A stretch of 58,007 nt of DNA, taken from Lachnospiraceae bacterium. Its GTDB lineage: Bacteria > Bacillota > Clostridia > Lachnospirales > Lachnospiraceae. Below are positions 4,591 to 11,369 of the stretch, piece after piece. Under the pieces are notes generated by a model. It ran no database searches. It saw only the letters and a list, made by a program, of their open reading frames with translations, and was not told the DNA's origin. Both the position numbers and the translations under genes were made by a program. Each line of letters begins with the position of its first letter. Position 1 is the first letter of the stretch. The stretch is from positions 157,965 through 215,971 of the forward strand of contig FZRB01000002.1 of the NCBI GenBank assembly GCA_900199595.1, in the 5' to 3' direction.

Positions 4591-5880
4591 CTATTCGGAG
4601 ATGTTCCTGTTCCCAGCAGGGGCATCTCCTTTTCTTATTTTTTCATTTTCTTTGTTTATTCTATATCCCGGTCTCGGTACTATCTGTTTTACGGTACCTC
4701 CAACTATAACCTTTTTTCTGGCCGCTATATAATACTGCATCGTGGTCGATTCCAGATCTCCGATATATGCTGCTATCTCTTTTGTGTCTGCACCATTTTC
4801 ATACATCCTGGTGGCAAATGTTCTTCTCAGGATATGAAGACCGCTTACTTTATCATCAAGTCCGGCATTTTTATATACTGTTCCCATACAGTGCTCCATC
4901 ATAGTTGCCGAATACTGTTTATTATTCTTAGTTCTGCATATCAGATCATCCGGACCACCACCTTTTTCATTCATGATCATATCCAGATCTTCAATCGCTT
5001 CATCAAATAGTTGAAGCACTCTGGCTTTCTGATTCTTGGTCGTACCCTGAACAGCTATATATTTTGCCTCATTTTCGGAAGCATTCCTATTCCTGCAGAA
5101 AGAAGTACTTTTGTTTATGACAATATATCCGTTTTCCTTATCATAATCCTTCCATCTGAGACTTATGAGCTCTCCGACTCTCATGCCTGAATGAAGCAGC
5201 AGTCTTCCATATAGTCCACCTGAATACTTCAGCTCACCATTGTTATCATTGGTTCTTAATGTTTCCTGTAAGAACTTTTCTTCTTCCTCTTCTGAGAGAA
5301 CTATCACATCTGCCTCTGCTGCAGATTTTGATTCAAGCTTAGACAGCCTTTTCATAATAAGCTTCTTTATAGATTTAGCCGGATTTCTATGCAGCTCATT
5401 CCTGACTGCAGCCCATTCCAGCGCCGCATTCAGAACATCCACAACCTTCTTTATTGTTGAAGGTGATAATCCTGTCTTTATCAAAGCACTTATATGGTTA
5501 TCAATGTCTGCAGGGGTTACAGCCTGTGTCTGCATATACCCTAAAGAATACTTTTCGATCTGATTTTTGATTGTATCCTCACGCCTGTCTACTGACTTAG
5601 GTTTCAATTCGCCGTTCTGTACCTGAAACTCAAGATGCCTCTTACACAGATCTGCAACCGTTTCGTCCGGATTAGCATTGATCAGAGCCATTCTTTCTTC
5701 CCAGGCTTTCTCCTTTTTTTTCATAAGCTTGACACAGATTGCACGATTATCACCTCTGACAGTTAACACTTTTCGTTTTCCCGGAATATCTGATTCAACA
5801 TATTTTCTATGAAGGATCTTTCCATTTTCCATCTCAACGAAGGTACCCTGTCCTTTTATATTTCGTTTTGTATCTCCCAT
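4591..5880 (-). CDS. int: Tyrosine recombinase (phage/ICE-type integrase)
   Basis: Site-specific recombinase of the Tn916/phage integrase type, 429 residues from the ATG at 5880. That start was chosen because AAAGGAGAAAAC precedes it; an upstream ATG at 5901 lacks a site. The N-terminal part (about 1-60) resembles the arm-binding domain and residues 75-180 the SAM-like core-binding domain. The catalytic domain shows R234 (SGMRVGELISLRW), the beta-hairpin Lys region (TKNQKARV), H349/R352 (HILRRTFATRM) and Y383 (STTMQYY). The usual GH before the tyrosine is GD here (D375), so the sixth conserved residue is changed. It follows xis in one operon and ends at a terminator next to the TGAAGTC repeats. 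The family catalyses excision and integration; activity here is unproven. Confidence 0.93.
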   Translation of the reverse strand: MGDTKRNIKGQGTFVEMENGKILHRKYVESDIPGKRKVLTVRGDNRAICVKLMKKKEKAWEERMALINANPDETVADLCKRHLEFQVQNGELKPKSVDRREDTIKNQIEKYSLGYMQTQAVTPADIDNHISALIKTGLSPSTIKKVVDVLNAALEWAAVRNELHRNPAKSIKKLIMKRLSKLESKSAAEADVIVLSEEEEEKFLQETLRTNDNNGELKYSGGLYGRLLLHSGMRVGELISLRWKDYDKENGYIVINKSTSFCRNRNASENEAKYIAVQGTTKNQKARVLQLFDEAIEDLDMIMNEKGGGPDDLICRTKNNKQYSATMMEHCMGTVYKNAGLDDKVSGLHILRRTFATRMYENGADTKEIAAYIGDLESTTMQYYIAARKKVIVGGTVKQIVPRPGYRINKENEKIRKGDAPAGNRNISE

Positions 5881-5958
5881 GTTTTCTCCTTTCTTTGTCA
5901 TAACGGCGAGGGCTATTCACTTTCTTCAGTGAAAGCCTCTCACCATATAACTCTTGAT

Positions 5959-6171
5959 TTAAATGATGTATCTCTTATGTTCATAGTTGCTTAGCCATTC
6001 ATTTAATGCTTTTTCTGTTACGATATATCGTTTGCCTATACAGATAGACGGAAATGCTTTGGACTTCATTAATGCATACGCTCTATCTCTTCCGATCTTT
6101 AATATCTCTGCAAGATCCTTGGCTGTATAAACCTTAATATCGTCTGAATAGCTTATATCATCGTTATACAT
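5959..6171 (-). CDS. xis: Excisionase-type helix-turn-helix protein
   Basis: A 70-residue protein starting at the ATG at 6171 (AGGAGG 7 nt upstream; an upstream in-frame ATG at 6201 has no site). It carries the excisionase/MerR-like winged-helix pattern YTAKDLAEILKIGRDRAYALM...YIVTEKALNEWL, the usual form of element-encoded Xis proteins that bend DNA and steer the integrase towards excision. It lies 78 bp upstream of int on the same strand, and both are read from the promoter at 6263-6235. The downstream overlap of that promoter with a palindromic operator suggests repression by the divergently encoded XRE protein. Confidence 0.88.
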   Translation of the reverse strand: MYNDDISYSDDIKVYTAKDLAEILKIGRDRAYALMKSKAFPSICIGKRYIVTEKALNEWLSNYEHKRYII

Positions 6172-6211
6172 ATAGTTTCCTCCTTTCTTGTCTATTTTCA
6201 TATTTAATAGT

Positions 6212-6263
6212 GTGTACTATTTTCGTACACCTATAATATATCATCCATTTAAACAGTTGTCAA
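6212..6263 (-). promoter_or_regulatory. xis-int promoter with operator O1
   Basis: On the minus strand TTGACA (6263-6258), a 17-bp spacer and TATATT (6240-6235) form a near-consensus sigma-A promoter. The predicted start point falls in the palindrome GTGTAC-N7-GTACAC (6212-6230), the best copy of the GTAC-N7-GTAC operator. A repressor bound there would block initiation. Confidence 0.8.
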
Positions 6264-6283
6264 TATATCGTTCATTATAGACC

Positions 6284-6358
6284 GTATGTTTTTCGTACAC
6301 TTTTTACTTTCCTTTCTATGTCAATTATGGTATTATGATTAATGTACTAATTTCGTAC
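6284..6358 (+). promoter_or_regulatory. XRE gene promoter with operators O2 and O3
   Basis: An extended -10 (TGG-TATTAT, 6328-6336) precedes the XRE gene. O3 (GTAC-TAATTTC-GTAC, 6344-6358) covers the predicted start point, and a degraded copy O2 (GTAT-GTTTTTC-GTACAC) lies at 6284-6300. The arrangement implies autoregulation and divergent control of xis-int. Confidence 0.65.
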
Positions 6359-6414
6359 TATATCGTAGAATACTTTTTATGATCATCTACTTTTTCAATT
6401 CGGAGGTAATAATC

Positions 6415-6897
6415 ATGGGTGACGGAAAAAATCTTAAGGAAATACTTGATTCAAAAAATATGAGTGTCAGAGAGTTATCCCGAAGAACCGGTATCAGTCG
6501 AACCACTATCTATTCAATCATTCAGAAAGATACTAATATCCGTTTCGACTTTGCTCTCAGAATCGCAAATGAACTCGATATCGAAACATCTGATATCTGC
6601 TCCAATACTCCTTTCTCAGGTGATATAGCTGCGAACGAAGTGTTCCCGGCTCTTCCTGAAGGTCTTAACAGCGTACTGGATTCAGGCAGAATCAAGATGT
6701 ATCTCAAGAATTCCCTATATCCACTTATGAATCTGTTCGGAAAAAAATCGATGCCCGATGTAGATAACTTACTTACATCTTTCTACAAACTTGACGATGA
6801 AGCTCGTCAGGAAATAATAGAAATGATAAAAATCAAGCTGAAGACTCACACTGACAAGGAGCGTGAGAAAGAAATCAAGCAGATTAAGGGCTGGTAA
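6415..6897 (+). CDS. XRE-family element repressor
   Basis: A 160-residue regulator starting at the ATG at 6415, which has CGGAGG 9 nt upstream (the frame is open from 6379 but without a ribosome site). Residues about 5-60 form a Cro/CI-type helix-turn-helix (MSVRELSRRTGISRTTIYSII, then RFDFALRIANELDI). The C-terminal half contains a conserved-looking KLDDEARQEIIEMIK helix, common in Lachnospiraceae XRE regulators and possibly a dimerisation segment. No peptidase or metal site is seen. The gene is divergent from xis-int with four GTAC-N7-GTAC sites around it, so a CI-like role silencing excision is the simplest reading. It is followed by a perfect terminator. Confidence 0.85.
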   Translation: MGDGKNLKEILDSKNMSVRELSRRTGISRTTIYSIIQKDTNIRFDFALRIANELDIETSDICSNTPFSGDIAANEVFPALPEGLNSVLDSGRIKMYLKNSLYPLMNLFGKKSMPDVDNLLTSFYKLDDEARQEIIEMIKIKLKTHTDKEREKEIKQIKGW

Positions 6898-6915
6898 TTC
6901 ACTAAAAACGTATCT

Positions 6916-6954
6916 AAAAAGTTATCTATTTTTTTAAAAAATAGATAACTTTTT
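6916..6954. terminator. Bidirectional terminator after XRE gene
   Basis: Near-perfect palindrome AAAAAGTTATCTATTTTTT and its complement, with T-runs on both strands, 18 bp after the XRE stop codon. Confidence 0.85.
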
Positions 6955-6962
6955 GAGCTTCT

Positions 6963-6977
6963 GTACGATTTTCGTAC
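6963..6977. promoter_or_regulatory. Operator O4 (GTAC-N7-GTAC) downstream of XRE gene
   Basis: GTACGATTTTCGTAC matches O1 and O3 in arms, spacing and spacer (ATTTTC/AATTTC) but lies beyond the terminator. No obvious promoter is next to it, so it may be the remains of another element promoter or mark the element end. Confidence 0.6.
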
Positions 6978-7056
6978 TAATTTGTCTGTCCGTCTTATAT
7001 TACAAACAAGTTTATACGAACTTACTCATACTGACCTCAAAGCCCCTAAATAAGCC

Positions 7057-7097
7057 AAAAAAGGGAGTTTAGTAAAATAACTTACTAAACTCCCTTT
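7057..7097 (-). terminator. Terminator of tRNA-Gln transcript
   Basis: A 16-bp perfect stem (7060-7075 with 7082-7097, AAAGGGAGTTTAGTAA), followed on the minus strand by a T-run, 3 bp after the tRNA 3' end. Confidence 0.9.
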
Positions 7098-7100
7098 GAG

Positions 7101-7172
7101 CAGGGGTACAAGGATTCGAACCTTGAAATGACGGAGTCAGAGTCCGTTGCCTTACCATTTGGCGATACCCCT
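7101..7172 (-). tRNA. tRNA-Gln (anticodon CTG)
   Basis: A 72-nt cloverleaf with acceptor AGGGGTA/TACCCCT, anticodon stem ACGGA/TCCGT enclosing the loop CTCTGAC (anticodon CTG), and T-arm AAGG-TTCGAAT-CCTT. The discriminator base is G and no CCA is encoded. The 3' end faces the integrase module, but no duplicated tRNA end was seen to its left. Confidence 0.95.
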
Positions 7173-7314: not shown

Positions 7315-9399
7315 CTACTCGTCTATCTTCTCGTTTATCGAAATAGACGCAAACATCGGTCTGGATTTAATGTATTCCATAATGATCTTCTCAGTTATAT
7401 CCGGCATGGAGAAATCGAAGAAGACCTTCTTGACGTACTGTTTATAGAGACTTATTTCATTCAGGACGGTTTCGGCCGTATTTAACTCATAATATGCATA
7501 CTCATCACCGTACTTACTGCGAATGGATGCCTTAAACTTTTCATTCGATGATACGATTATTATCATATCCTTCTCCGGATGATTTATTGGAAGAGCATGC
7601 CATCTGACGAATCTCGCCTTTCCTCTTGCCTTTGCCTCATAGAGCGCATCATCAGCAAGCTCATACAGATCTTCAAATGTACTTATGCAGTCATTGTCTA
7701 CTACAACTCCGATACTGCACGAAAGTCCGGCCACGCCACCATATCTGTATTCTCTAAGTACGCTGTTTATCCGGTCACATCTTGCTGTGAGTCCGGCTTC
7801 TGTTATCTCTCCGGCAAAGATTACCATGAATTCGTCTCCGCCGATTCGTCCGATTATATCATCATCTCTGAAGCTTCTTCTCAGCTGTCTTCCGAAACGT
7901 TTCAGAACTTCATCGCCTGCTCTGTGTCCAAAGTTGTCATTAACCTGCTTGAAATTATCAAAATCGAAAAGGAATACGGCGCATTTTTCATAATCATCTC
8001 TTTCGGAAAGGAAGTTTCTTGCCTCCTCCTCAAAGGATATCTTATTAAGTAAACCGGTAAGAAGATCCGTACTGCTCTTCACCTCAAGCTTCTGAACCAT
8101 GTCCTTTTCGTAGTGAATACAGTTTTCTCTTCTGTTAAAGCCATTATGAATTGCAGTTGCCATCTCGAAACAGGTATGATATCCGCAGCAGGTGCAGTCT
8201 ATATGTCTTGCATCCTCAGTCAGCTTATTCATGCTTCTGAATATAGCATCAGCCTCATATTCATCAGGTATCTGATACATACAGCCTTCTGATCTGTCTG
8301 TATATTCACGGAGATAATCCTCCAGCTTCAGATTCTCAAACTGCTTATTATAATTCTTAAGTCTTTCATCAGGAGAATCGGTACTTGACCACGCATTCCC
8401 CGAAGTACGCTTCTTAGATTTATTTCTGATCTTAAGTGCTTCATAAAGAGCATCATCTGTTTTTGCCTTATCAGGTTCTACTGCTGTTCCACACAGGCAG
8501 CCATTCTCACAATTAAGAGCGTCTATCAGCAGGAATGGCGTCTCATCAAACTTGATTCTGTCCTCATTATCCTGCATCCATTCGTAGAGTCTTCGCTCTC
8601 CCTCGATCTGTCTGATAAACACATCATCACCCAGGAACCACCTTACAGATTCTGCAAGGCCGCCCGGTGCCGGATAAAATGAACCCAGTCCATACTCGAT
8701 CTCACTTTCGGTAAATGGACCGGATATTTTATGCTCATTTACATACTCGATAAGATGGCTAAATGTTACATTATACTGAACAAGTCCGGCATTATGCGGA
8801 TCCTCTATCTCCATTTTCTTTGCCACGCAGGGACTTATAAATGCGAAGCTGTCCTCTATTCCCATTTCCTTTCTTGCATAGGTTGCTGCACACATCAGTG
8901 GACTTTGAACCGGAAAGAGCTTGCAGAGCAGTTCAGGAAGATATCTCTCTATATATGAAACCACTGCCGGACATGGCTGCGATATTCCACCCAGGAAATT
9001 ATTTTCCTTGATATAGTTCAGATATCCCCAGGTAGTTATATCTGCACCGAAGGATACGCTGATTATTCTGTTTACACCCATCTCCTTCAGGCCGCCCAGG
9101 ACACTTCCGTACTTATGCGGATAGTTAGCCTTAAATGCCGGTGCCAGCAGAAGGGATATCTTCTTCCCGTTTTGCAGATCCTCAAAGAATCTCTCAGTAT
9201 CATCCTGATACTCCCGGGCACCATGAACACATACATCCATACAGCTTCCACAGGCAACACATCTGTTTCCGTCAACAGTTATTCTCGGCTTTCCGTTTTC
9301 TACGCTCGATACACAGGCGCCAATAGCACTGCATACGCTTATACACTTATTACAGCCAATACAATTATCGTTAGTGTATACTATTGAATCTTTTTTCAT
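7315..9399 (-). CDS. [FeFe]-hydrogenase-like sensor fused to diguanylate cyclase
   Basis: A 694-residue cytosolic protein with an unusual domain string. Residues 13-57 hold two ferredoxin [4Fe-4S] motifs (C13/16/19/23 and C47/50/53/57). Residues 60-310 match the hydrogenase large-subunit domain of the putative sensory groups, with H-cluster ligand positions kept: C143 (QPCPAVV), C191 (SPCVAKK), C297 and C301 (NCENGC). Residues 402-427 form a CxxCGYxxC...C Fe-S motif as in sensory hydrogenases. A GGDEF domain follows (about 440-605) with the catalytic GGDEF at 520-524 and an RDDD inhibitory site at 511-514. The last 85 residues resemble part of a receiver domain (FFDFSMPD). The family suggests H2 or redox sensing converted to c-di-GMP; that is inference. 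No maturases are nearby. Confidence 0.9.
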   Translation of the reverse strand: MKKDSIVYTNDNCIGCNKCISVCSAIGACVSSVENGKPRITVDGNRCVACGSCMDVCVHGAREYQDDTERFFEDLQNGKKISLLLAPAFKANYPHKYGSVLGGLKEMGVNRIISVSFGADITTWGYLNYIKENNFLGGISQPCPAVVSYIERYLPELLCKLFPVQSPLMCAATYARKEMGIEDSFAFISPCVAKKMEIEDPHNAGLVQYNVTFSHLIEYVNEHKISGPFTESEIEYGLGSFYPAPGGLAESVRWFLGDDVFIRQIEGERRLYEWMQDNEDRIKFDETPFLLIDALNCENGCLCGTAVEPDKAKTDDALYEALKIRNKSKKRTSGNAWSSTDSPDERLKNYNKQFENLKLEDYLREYTDRSEGCMYQIPDEYEADAIFRSMNKLTEDARHIDCTCCGYHTCFEMATAIHNGFNRRENCIHYEKDMVQKLEVKSSTDLLTGLLNKISFEEEARNFLSERDDYEKCAVFLFDFDNFKQVNDNFGHRAGDEVLKRFGRQLRRSFRDDDIIGRIGGDEFMVIFAGEITEAGLTARCDRINSVLREYRYGGVAGLSCSIGVVVDNDCISTFEDLYELADDALYEAKARGKARFVRWHALPINHPEKDMIIIVSSNEKFKASIRSKYGDEYAYYELNTAETVLNEISLYKQYVKKVFFDFSMPDITEKIIMEYIKSRPMFASISINEKIDE

Positions 9400-9439: not shown

Positions 9440-9832
9440 CTAGAAATTGACTATCTCCGGTGCTGCTGTAAATGAGCTGAATACAGCAGTTGCATTCTGG
9501 AAATAGAAAACCTCTGTATTTCCATCATCCTCAGAATACATATTTCTGAGCTCAGGATATGCATTTAACATAGATTCTCTTGCTTCTCTTCTGTCATCCT
9601 CTATCAGCTCTCCTGATACTCTGAGCCAGGCTCCATCCTTAAATGCGCATATCTCAGCCTTTGGATTTGTGTGAAGCTGCTTTGATACAGGCTTAACCTT
9701 TCCAGTCTGAATATACAGCTTTCCATCGAAGATATTGATAGTTCCAAAAGGTCTTACCCTTGGCTGATCTCCATCAACTGTTGCAAGATAATAGGTTCCT
9801 GCCTCCTTTAAAAATTTTGCTACCCTTTCCAT
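9440..9832 (-). CDS. Pyridoxamine 5'-phosphate oxidase-like flavin split-barrel protein
   Basis: A 130-residue single-domain protein with the split-barrel fold signature of the PNPOx/FMN-binding family: YYLATVDGDQPRVRPFG at the start (strand plus FMN-phosphate contact region), LYIQTGKVKPVSKQLHTNPKAEI in the middle and the WLRVSGE strand. Such small clostridial members bind FMN or F420-type cofactors and are often annotated as flavin reductase-like or NimC/NimA relatives; the substrate cannot be read from sequence. The start ATG at 9832 has GGGAGAAAAGT upstream. It sits 40 bp upstream of the hydrogenase-like cyclase on the same strand, so co-transcription is likely, but no functional link is shown. 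Confidence 0.85.
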   Translation of the reverse strand: MERVAKFLKEAGTYYLATVDGDQPRVRPFGTINIFDGKLYIQTGKVKPVSKQLHTNPKAEICAFKDGAWLRVSGELIEDDRREARESMLNAYPELRNMYSEDDGNTEVFYFQNATAVFSSFTAAPEIVNF

Positions 9833-9881: not shown

Positions 9882-11339
9882 TTAGTTACTGAAATGTAAA
9901 ACATTCAGGAGCAGTATCCAGCTCATCCCATAATAAGTGACTACTGCTACCAGGTCGTTAACTGTAGTAATAAGCGGTCCGGAAGCCACTGCCGGATCCA
10001 CCTTGATTCGTTTAAAGAACAGCGGTATCAGTGTTCCTACCGCACTAGATATGATCATAGCCAGAAGAAGAGATGCTCCGATGCAGCCCGATACTGCAAA
10101 GGAAAATCCGGCTTCCTTTCCTTTGAAGAACATGATATATAATCCAACCATCACAAATGATATGGCTCCCAGAAGCAGTCCATTGCAGAGACCGACACGC
10201 ATTTCCTTTGTTACAAGATGACCTTTTTGCTTAAATGTCAGATTCTCGTCAGTCAGTACACGAATGGTAACGGCAAGTGACTGGGTACCTACATTTCCGG
10301 CCATATCAAGTATGAGTGACTGAAATGCCATGATCAGCGTCAGCTGTGCGACCACCTTATCAAACATGCCTACCACGCTGGATACAACCATTCCGAGTCC
10401 CAGCAGTATAACCAGCCAGGGAAGTCTCTTTCTCATACTCTGGATAAGAGGCTCCTTCAGGTCTTCCTCTGCAATAAGACCGGCCAGCTTGGCGTAGTCT
10501 TCACCCATCTCATCATCTACTACTTCAATTATACTCTGTGCTGTGATAATTCCAAGTACCTTATTCATGTTATCCAGCACCGGAATATAACTCTCCGAAT
10601 AATCCTTCAGTCTTTCGATACAGTCATCAATCGACTCGTTTGCATATACATAGGGGAAGGATGTAACTATCAGATTATCAAGGGGCACTGTATTCCTTGC
10701 GATGATCAGGTCCTTCAGATCTATAGCTCCGCAGAACTCATCATTCTCATCTACAACGAAGAGTGTGGATATATTATCGTTATCCTCCGCCTGTCTCACA
10801 AGCTCATTCATGGCCTGCTTGACCGTCAGATCCTCTTTAATAATAATACAATTTGTAGTCATGTGACTACCTATTTCATCCTCATCGAAGGATGCCAGAA
10901 GTCTGATTTCCTTCTGTATCTCCGGATGAATGGAATCTATGATAAGAGTCCTTTTTTCCTTTTCTATCTGGTGCAGTACATTTGCTGCCGTATCAGTCTC
11001 CATCTCGGATACTACTGCTGCAGCCTTACGGATGTCCATCTCATCCAGATATTTTCCCGCATCATCCTCATCTATATATTCGAAAACCTCCGCAAGCATT
11101 TCCGGGTTACTGATGCGGTACAGCTTCTTTCTCTCCTGAGAATTGAGCGCACTAAAAACACCGGCTATATCATTTGCATGATAGTCTTCTATTTTTCCAA
11201 GCATTATCCTGGGGGAACTGTTGCTTCTGATTATTCCAAGAATTTCAGCCTCATAATCAGGCTTTGTCAGAGCAGAATCATTTCCTGCGGCGGAAATGTC
11301 CTCTGACACAGAATCGACATTTCTAACTTCTTCTTCCAT
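9882..11339 (-). CDS. mgtE: MgtE-family magnesium transporter
   Basis: Homodimeric Mg2+ channel of the inner membrane, 485 residues. The ATG at 11339 was chosen because GGAGG lies 5 nt upstream; the frame stays open to 11366 but that extension overlaps the palindromic element. Order: an acidic N-terminal tail, the MgtE N domain (about 25-150, VFSALNSQERKKLYRI...), two CBS domains (about 155-280, including TLFVVDENDEFCGAIDLKDL and VLDNMNKVLGIITAQSI), then five membrane segments. Pore motifs are recognisable: MAGNVGTQSLAVTIR and the final-helix GPLITTVNDLVAVVTYY with the conserved Asp. In the family the cytosolic domains sense Mg2+ and gate the pore. The long structured leader suggests additional control at RNA level. 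Confidence 0.95.
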   Translation of the reverse strand: MEEEVRNVDSVSEDISAAGNDSALTKPDYEAEILGIIRSNSSPRIMLGKIEDYHANDIAGVFSALNSQERKKLYRISNPEMLAEVFEYIDEDDAGKYLDEMDIRKAAAVVSEMETDTAANVLHQIEKEKRTLIIDSIHPEIQKEIRLLASFDEDEIGSHMTTNCIIIKEDLTVKQAMNELVRQAEDNDNISTLFVVDENDEFCGAIDLKDLIIARNTVPLDNLIVTSFPYVYANESIDDCIERLKDYSESYIPVLDNMNKVLGIITAQSIIEVVDDEMGEDYAKLAGLIAEEDLKEPLIQSMRKRLPWLVILLGLGMVVSSVVGMFDKVVAQLTLIMAFQSLILDMAGNVGTQSLAVTIRVLTDENLTFKQKGHLVTKEMRVGLCNGLLLGAISFVMVGLYIMFFKGKEAGFSFAVSGCIGASLLLAMIISSAVGTLIPLFFKRIKVDPAVASGPLITTVNDLVAVVTYYGMSWILLLNVLHFSN

Positions 11340-11369
11340 TTCAGCCTCCGCTTTTATCATAACCATTTA

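Follow-up and report, generated by a model that had tools for sequence, protein, structure and literature searches.

A sensory-type [FeFe]-hydrogenase fused to a diguanylate cyclase in a rumen Lachnospiraceae bacterium, and comparative evidence for H-cluster maturation without HydG

The sensory [FeFe]-hydrogenases of HydDB group C are partnered with histidine kinases (C1), chemotaxis proteins (C2) or phosphatases (C3), no cyclase being named among them in the excerpt available (PMC5037454), and a later sensory group, D, also exists (PMC11803613). Here we report that a window of 58,007 nucleotides from a rumen Lachnospiraceae bacterium (contig FZRB01000002.1, positions 157,965 to 215,971) carries at 7315..9399 a gene whose domains and motifs point to an [FeFe]-hydrogenase module of sensory type joined in one chain to a diguanylate cyclase that looks active, as an initial annotation made from the letters alone had proposed. 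The protein belongs to a known class of sensor and brings a new output to it. It has the sensor half of the C1/C2 enzymes, with the same three Fe-S sites and H-cluster motifs and 50-66% identity to proteins ending in methyl-accepting chemotaxis protein (MCP) or kinase domains, whereas its output is a GGDEF domain followed by a truncated receiver; the subgroup is assigned from those MCP- and kinase-ended kin rather than by the HydDB classifier. The more important result concerns how such a protein could receive its H-cluster: a sizeable share of the hydrogenase-bearing anaerobes examined appear to manage without HydG, and the comparative evidence for a HydG-independent maturation looks strong.

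The fusion protein and its parts are as follows.
7315..9399 (minus strand): sensory [FeFe]-hydrogenase/GGDEF fusion protein, 694 amino acids, ATG start
9217..9384 (minus strand): residues 6-61, two ferredoxin-type [4Fe-4S] motifs, CIGCNKCISVC and CVACGSCMDVC, cysteines kept in 38 of 38 rows
8488..9159 (minus strand): residues 81-304, H-cluster domain PF02906 (Fe_hyd_lg_C), E 2.1e-24
8959..8985 (minus strand): motif L1, ISQPCPAVV, with Cys143 and with Pro142 at the CpI C299 position (alignment)
8803..8838 (minus strand): motif L2, ISPCVAKKMEIE, with Cys191 (alignment)
8497..8523 (minus strand): motif L3, DALNCENGC, with Cys297 and Cys301 (alignment)
8116..8202 (minus strand): residues 400-428, third Fe-S site, Cys402, Cys405, Cys410 and Cys427 (Pfam and alignment)
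7615..8073 (minus strand): residues 443-595, GGDEF diguanylate cyclase domain (Pfam, E 1.5e-34)
7858..7869 (minus strand): residues 511-514, RDDD, predicted inhibitory (I) site (alignment position)
7828..7842 (minus strand): residues 520-524, GGDEF active-site loop (alignment)
7318..7602 (minus strand): residues 600-694, truncated, degenerate receiver (REC) tail (alignment and profile search)

The plus strand of 7315-9399 contains stops, with no open frame across the span. The fusion protein is genuine and not a product of chance, since relatives of its sensor half, at 50-66% identity, occur in 30 other genomes of the family comparison, a single draw of 200 Lachnospiraceae genomes from 199 genera that includes its own (G000). 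Those alignments mostly stop at residues 434-489, at or just beyond the GGDEF boundary. Conservation in the sensor half was counted over 38 aligned rows, the protein itself and 37 relatives, some of them from HydG-bearing genomes (e.g., G188 and G193). All 16 predicted cluster cysteines are invariant in these rows, among them the ferredoxin-type set (13, 16, 19, 23, 47, 50, 53 and 57), the H-cluster ligands (143, 191, 297 and 301) and those of the third site, which bears out the annotated reading of a full set of H-cluster ligand positions and three extra Fe-S motifs in one chain. The Pfam matches to the accessory sites lie just over their cut-offs (Fer4_7 at residues 12-61, 28.1 bits against 27; FeS PF04060 at residues 400-428, 23.8 against 23). 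Lys194 and Glu197 of motif L2 are conserved in 37 of the 38 rows, and the positions of CpI C299 and M353 are held by Pro142 and Ser189, each residue recurring in 33. Cys at C299 is the exception in HydDB sensory sequences (17%), about 10% have Pro there, and a small residue usually takes the place of M353 (PMC10055695). The likeness to Thermotoga maritima HydS lies in retained cluster cysteines and in C299, M353 and M497 positions altered as in sensory enzymes (PMC10055695); HydS is PAS-linked, whereas the fusion protein has no PAS domain.

The GGDEF domain is complete, with its loop intact, the metal/GTP motif DxDxFKxxND and an RxxD inhibitory site, in agreement with the first reading. This RxxD sits five residues ahead of GGDEF, a gap that we take to be the I-site spacing of PleD. 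The receiver-GGDEF cyclases PleD and WspR have the same GGDEF and I-site spacing and a homologous receiver; here, in contrast, the receiver is C-terminal, truncated and without the acidic pair, and the input is a hydrogenase module. The annotation had also described a receiver-like tail, of which the homology holds: residues 600-694 align with the opening ~85 positions of the receivers found in related GGDEF proteins, and a profile of six tails, in which some rows carry complete receivers, matches CheY-like receivers at E 1.6e-15. The third-strand Asp is retained, but the acidic pair reads SS and the chain stops before strand 5, and the tail does not combine a complete fold with the acidic pair, phospho-Asp and strand-5 Lys of a receiver. 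Being truncated and degenerate, and 28% identical to the nearest tail (L160), it is unlikely to act as a normal phospho-receiver and may be a remnant or a dimer surface.

Relatives were fetched as a selection from the sensor-half matches, giving 62 sensor frames with the fusion protein included. All were judged by size and motif and 33 (the fusion protein among them) also by Pfam; the other 29 were judged by a pattern script that overlooked some MCP domains and one GGDEF. GGDEF occurs in three of the 62 frames, 33 of them Pfam-checked: the fusion protein, L134 and L149. By Pfam the latter two match GGDEF weakly and EAL strongly, and the fusion protein is the sole GGDEF form without EAL among the 62, 29 of which are pattern-judged. 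All 26 proteins labelled MCP for the sensor tree carry Fe_hyd_lg_C together with MCPsignal (Pfam); other outputs are MCP plus receiver (L017), histidine kinase plus receiver (L028 and L042) and PAS (L153). In the tree the fusion protein groups with L017 and L042 amid MCP rows (support 97/96), and three PAS-type family proteins form a separate clade (100/100). Its GGDEF and tail part resembles separate proteins (L160 at 45%, L161, L162 and L165). Because the kin of the sensor half are mostly MCP-ended and those of the GGDEF and tail are separate proteins, the fusion looks like the result of a domain swap, in which a C2-type (hydrogenase-MCP) sensor exchanged its output for a GGDEF and receiver-tail module. 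A stand-alone sensor half (L166 in G087:C5, a 452-residue frame) adjoins an upstream open reading frame (ORF) ending in a GGDEF-like domain, and this pairing is possibly an unfused form of the same combination.

The CO and CN ligands of the H-cluster are attributed to HydG (PMC11736057), and the initial annotation had named the HydEFG maturases as a check on its reading. The outcome is divided: HydE (557 bits) and HydF (560 bits) are both over cut-off, have intact motifs and are encoded by adjacent genes on contig C26, whereas HydG was not found in this 3.49 Mb genome (47 contigs, completeness 100%), where the best match reaches 178 bits against a cut-off of 312. That match is ThiH (511 bits; cut-off 380), whose gene lies among ORFs resembling thiF, thiG and thiE, as read by eye. 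ThiH was considered as a substitute for HydG and rejected, as it adjoins these putative thiamine genes and some HydG-less genomes hold merely weak radical-SAM matches (~1e-17 to 1e-21). The genome has two Fe_hyd_lg_C genes, one for the fusion protein and one for a canonical HydA of group A6 (821 bits; NCBIfam cut-off 765) adjoining NuoF- and NuoE-like genes. Since it keeps this HydA together with a cluster of nitrogenase-like (nfl) and hyp genes that tracks HydG absence across genomes, the missing HydG was not taken as refuting an H-cluster.

Nitrogenase-like and Hyp genes share the cluster with hydE and hydF, in departure from HydEFG maturation.
Contig C26, L046 6695-17067 and L128 586-7935: hydF-hydE-nflHDK1-nflHDK2-hypF-hypC-hypD-hypE cluster

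The order runs from a TM1266-type regulator through two other ORFs, hydF, hydE, a NifH-like, NifD-like and NifK-like trio, a small ORF and a second such trio to hypF, hypC, hypD and hypE; between hypC and hypD (L128 4462-5786) lie a dihydrofolate reductase-like gene and a damage-control phosphatase (ARMT1-like). HypF (738 bits), HypD (397), HypE (426) and TM1266 are over curated cut-offs, and HypC was identified by 74% identity to a PF01455 protein of L097. These are the same enzymes, with the catalytic cysteines kept, as the HypCDEF of [NiFe] Fe(CN)2CO assembly, but 11 of 12 cluster genomes are without a [NiFe] large-subunit match, and the genome bearing the fusion has no PF00374 match. NflH belongs to PF00142 and NflD and NflK to PF00148, families shared with the nitrogenase Fe protein and component 1 (NifH/D/K, NifE); the nfl proteins differ in being very distant by sequence and linked to hydrogenase genes. 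NflK1, NflD2 and NflK2 fall far under the cut-offs of the NifD and NifK models, NflD1 has no NCBIfam match at E 0.001, and the best relatives of NflD1 and NflD2 among solved nitrogenases are NifE and nitrogenase alpha chains, at 30-45 bits. Several gene names in the nfl loci described below come from blastp to the proteins of this genome (bits over 45 or 60) rather than from curated models.

Within the family, HydF is over cut-off in 118 of the 200 genomes, HydG in 100 and HypD in 31. Fifteen genomes have a close NflD1 (over 160 bits); among the 118 with HydF it is present in 14 of the 22 without HydG versus none of the 96 with it (Fisher 6e-13, no correction for kinship), the fifteenth genome, G175, having no HydF match. 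Weaker nitrogenase-like matches, at 26-28% identity, occur in five further genomes, two of which have HydG (G072 and G143). Twelve HydG-less genomes hold NflHDK2 and HypD, with the Hyp genes in the same locus in 11 and on another contig in G091. A [NiFe] large-subunit match was found in one of these 12 versus 18 of the 19 other HypD genomes (p 1.6e-6, again without kinship correction); most of the 18 matches are weak and partial (40-57 bits; cut-off 25.8), so the test depends on the model detecting distant large subunits. The exception, G069, has the [NiFe] match and a second HypD on a separate contig. Fe_hyd_lg_C proteins are present in all 23 genomes checked (21 HydG-less, G175 and G160) and exceed 280 bits in 20, as expected of full HydA. 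No NifH motif was seen in ~1.5 kb hydF flanks of eight HydG-less genomes, among the flanks listed; wider regions show the cluster, adjoining hydF or hydE in some and at a separate locus in others. A selenoprotein HydE, suggested by two internal TGA codons in the HydG-search matches of four genomes, was rejected: the stretches matched by tblastn with HydE contain no stop (0/4), and the internal TGA was taken as an artefact for that reason. Full-length HydE was recovered in three of those genomes at 57-65% identity, and the fourth match was at 40%.

The association extends beyond the family. When named genome contigs were scanned with the NflD1 alignment, 572 relatives emerged and 79 loci were kept; they come from Lachnospiraceae, Ruminococcus (including R. 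bicirculans 80/3), Lentisphaeria/Victivallales, a Spirochaetaceae metagenome-assembled genome (MAG), Mogibacterium, Clostridiaceae BL-3, Clostridium ljungdahlii and others. Within flanks of up to 10 kb, frequently shortened by contig ends, HydE or HydF lies beside 52 of the 79, HydE, HydF or TM1266 beside 76, and at least one Hyp gene beside 48; in one Victivallales locus the cluster itself includes a group A6 HydA. The genomes of 50 of these loci, chosen beforehand with a preference for longer contigs and so as to cover both types, were searched for HydG, which was over cut-off in one: none of 39 Hyp-type, one of eight ATP-binding cassette (ABC)-type and none of three others. The ABC type consists of NflHDK1 with a FecCD permease, an ABC ATPase and a periplasmic binding protein and has no Hyp genes (L093 in G117, L094 in G134, L218, L219, L221, L223, L224, L227, L229, L232, L239, L243 and L245-L247). 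The FecCD-type importer occurs in 13 of the 79 named loci, never alongside Hyp, and hydE or hydF adjoins the ABC-type genes in six of the 13 and in both family loci. In some Lachnospiraceae loci (L186, L188, L190, L192, L193 and L241) a stand-alone sensor-like hydrogenase of ~435 residues, with H-domain and third Fe-S site, lies near the nfl cluster.

A HydF tree of 72 proteins (HydG status: 23 with, 41 without, 8 untested; 22 of the 96 HydG-bearing family genomes represented, their rows taken from the 30 best-scoring HydF loci) needs nine changes of HydG label, at least four of them forced by supported branches, and the association therefore does not reflect one old clade. Catalytic residues are well kept across these sets: the HypE C-terminal PRIC Cys in 43 of 44, HypD GPGCPVC in 53 of 53, HypF GVGFRP and HHxAH-type motifs in 55 of 55, HydE CxxxCxxC in 53 of 53, and the HydF Fe-S motif CxH-HCxxC in 69 of 72. 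The P-loop of NflH is present in 158 of 159, its cluster-Cys motifs are nearly always kept, and NflD1 Cys 59, 63 and 123 have a frequency of 1.00 over 97 rows.

In [NiFe] maturation, carbamoyl phosphate is the source of the cyanide made by HypE and HypF, and HypCD is the carrier of Fe with CO/CN. CO2 can be reduced to CO in vitro by nitrogenases and by their Fe proteins. As HydE and HydF are retained while HydG is missing, it is simplest to suppose that Hyp and Nfl replace HydG's products. We think it reasonably likely that HydG-less organisms have a second natural route to the H-cluster, in which CO and CN from HypCDEF and NflHDK1/NflHDK2 would be passed to HydE/HydF; repeatedly gained or lost and spread over Firmicutes, Lentisphaerota and a Spirochaetaceae MAG, this route would feed metabolic hydrogenases as well as sensors, and its short form (NflHDK1 plus a FecCD-type importer, no Hyp) may import a ligand precursor. 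HypF and HypE would produce the cyanide from carbamoyl phosphate, HypC and HypD would hold the iron, and the nitrogenase-like reductases would provide CO and/or a reduced iron unit needed by HydE, so that Hyp and Nfl together would provide what HydG makes elsewhere, be it the diatomic ligands or the Fe(CO)x(CN) unit. All of this chemistry we infer from gene content, and the division of labour between the Hyp and Nfl complexes is a guess.

Since HydG was not found in its genome, the fusion protein would most likely obtain an H-cluster by way of HydE, HydF and the C26 cluster. Conversion of H2 level into cyclic di-GMP (c-di-GMP) by such a protein is plausible. The H-cluster would react with H2 or report the redox state of ferredoxin, the two ferredoxin clusters and the third Fe-S site would transfer or store electrons, and a redox change could shift the short linker near residues 430-440 and so alter the pairing of two GGDEF domains, which when paired would make c-di-GMP within the limit set by the I-site. 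That H2 is the signal, and the direction of control, we infer. A similar H2 to c-di-GMP logic has been proposed for the putative, diguanylate cyclase-linked [NiFe] group 2c (PMC5037454), which belongs to an unrelated hydrogenase class. Taken whole, we lean towards a soluble H2/redox sensor that controls c-di-GMP synthesis, its H-cluster matured without HydG through HydE, HydF and the nfl-hyp cluster. The fusion would then couple H2, one of the main fermentation currencies of the rumen, to lifestyle control by c-di-GMP.

Several observations weigh against this account of maturation and sensing. Eight of the 22 family genomes with HydF and without HydG are also without a strong nflD. One of them, G047, holds a HydG fragment (262 bits, under cut-off); G167 has NflHDK2 and part of NflK1 at a contig edge; G128 (69% complete; neither HydG nor close NflD1) and G011 (86% complete; HydG-less, with Hyp and a [NiFe] match and no NflD1) may be incomplete; and G114, G122, G142 and G181 (94-98% complete) have HydF with neither HydG nor NflD1 found. 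These four, like G011 and G128, may use a third route or have assembly gaps. The ABC-type loci of G117 and G134, being without Hyp, leave the source of cyanide unexplained, the genome of the ABC-type locus L227 has HydG, and the 50 HydG-tested nfl genomes come without completeness figures. In G160, from the genus of the window, a canonical HydA and a second hydrogenase are encoded, and the same searches gave no HydF, HydG, NflD1 or HypD match there; absence in drafts is thus imperfect evidence, and HydA no proof of a working maturation. Since one group 1a [NiFe] hydrogenase is reported in C. ljungdahlii (PMC9431212), its Hyp proteins could serve that enzyme. The Pro at the C299 proton-relay position suits a sensor but would also suit a poor catalyst. 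G122 also encodes a close relative of the sensor half.

The H-domain might instead hold Fe-S clusters without a [2Fe] subcluster, the protein then sensing no more than redox state or oxygen on behalf of the cyclase. The genome with no HydG over cut-off, the replacement of the proton-relay Cys by Pro, and ferredoxin and third Fe-S sites that could report redox unaided all fit this, but the four H-cluster cysteines in 38 of 38 rows and Lys194 and Glu197 in 37, rows that include the HydG-bearing genomes G188 and G193, do not, and the genome retains HydE, HydF and a full group A6 HydA, which would be of little use without H-clusters; we regard it as unlikely. We give equally little credence to a HydG lost in an assembly gap or too divergent to detect, with nfl-hyp making some other cofactor and lying near hydE-hydF by chance. 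The genome is a 47-contig draft, and atypical HydG candidates have been suggested in acetogens without the standard motifs (PMC9431212). However, full-length HydG matches in relatives reach 630-959 bits, most above 850, so an oversight is unlikely; completeness is 100%; HydG was also not found in a near-twin MAG (L180/G208), the single-contig G191, or the genomes behind the loci L216 (a record titled complete chromosome) and L183 (a 3.19 Mb contig); and the association spans genera and phyla, with the supported label changes on the HydF tree. That the hydrogenase domain is a working redox enzyme with little coupling to a GGDEF it does not control is very unlikely: rarity of the fusion (GGDEF in three of 62 frames, one of them without EAL) would agree with it, but relatives join the same sensor half to chemotaxis, kinase, PAS and EAL outputs, which marks a sensor, and none of the flanking ORFs scanned with Pfam is a hydrogenase subunit.

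Returning to maturation without HydG, the proposed route could account for patterns left open in industrial acetogens. Of eight clostridial acetogens, five (C. ljungdahlii among them) yielded no hydG by the usual motifs, and five have HypCDEF but no HypAB, a set that differs from the hydG-less five; a HydG candidate is named in C. autoethanogenum, which is in the HypAB-less set only, and atypical candidates in the other seven species (PMC9431212). That paper offers no firm explanation and does not contain the term 'nitrogenase-like'; it cites ~1% in vitro hydrogenase activation by HydE and HydF without HydG and an [FeFe] hydrogenase purified from C. autoethanogenum (PMC9431212). Rumen and gut genomes hold many nitrogenase genes with little expression (PMC6776011, PMC12578642), NifH being present in 23% of 501 rumen genomes (PMC6776011), and the route may also explain how frequent such genes are despite negligible N2 fixation, if those NifH matches are nfl genes. 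Among the matches listed, in a search mostly outside subscription journals, we found no publication linking nitrogenase-like genes to HydG loss. If true, the route would represent new, testable chemistry for nitrogenase-like enzymes.

The genes next to the fusion gene in the window are the following.
9440..9832 (minus strand): PNPOx-like protein, 40 nt upstream of the fusion gene, same strand
9882..11366 (minus strand): MgtE magnesium transporter, 49-nt gap to the PNPOx-like gene
7100-7172: tRNA-Gln, downstream of the fusion gene

It is possible that mgtE is the first gene of the same operon as the fusion gene. On the other side, window positions 4591-7172 hold a phage-type integrase, an excisionase-like helix-turn-helix protein and a Cro-like regulator adjoining the tRNA-Gln. 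The fusion gene was considered as cargo of this integrase element and rejected as such; it is probably outside the element because the tRNA-Gln sits between it and the integrase, and this tRNA gene, just downstream of the fusion gene, is the probable integration site.

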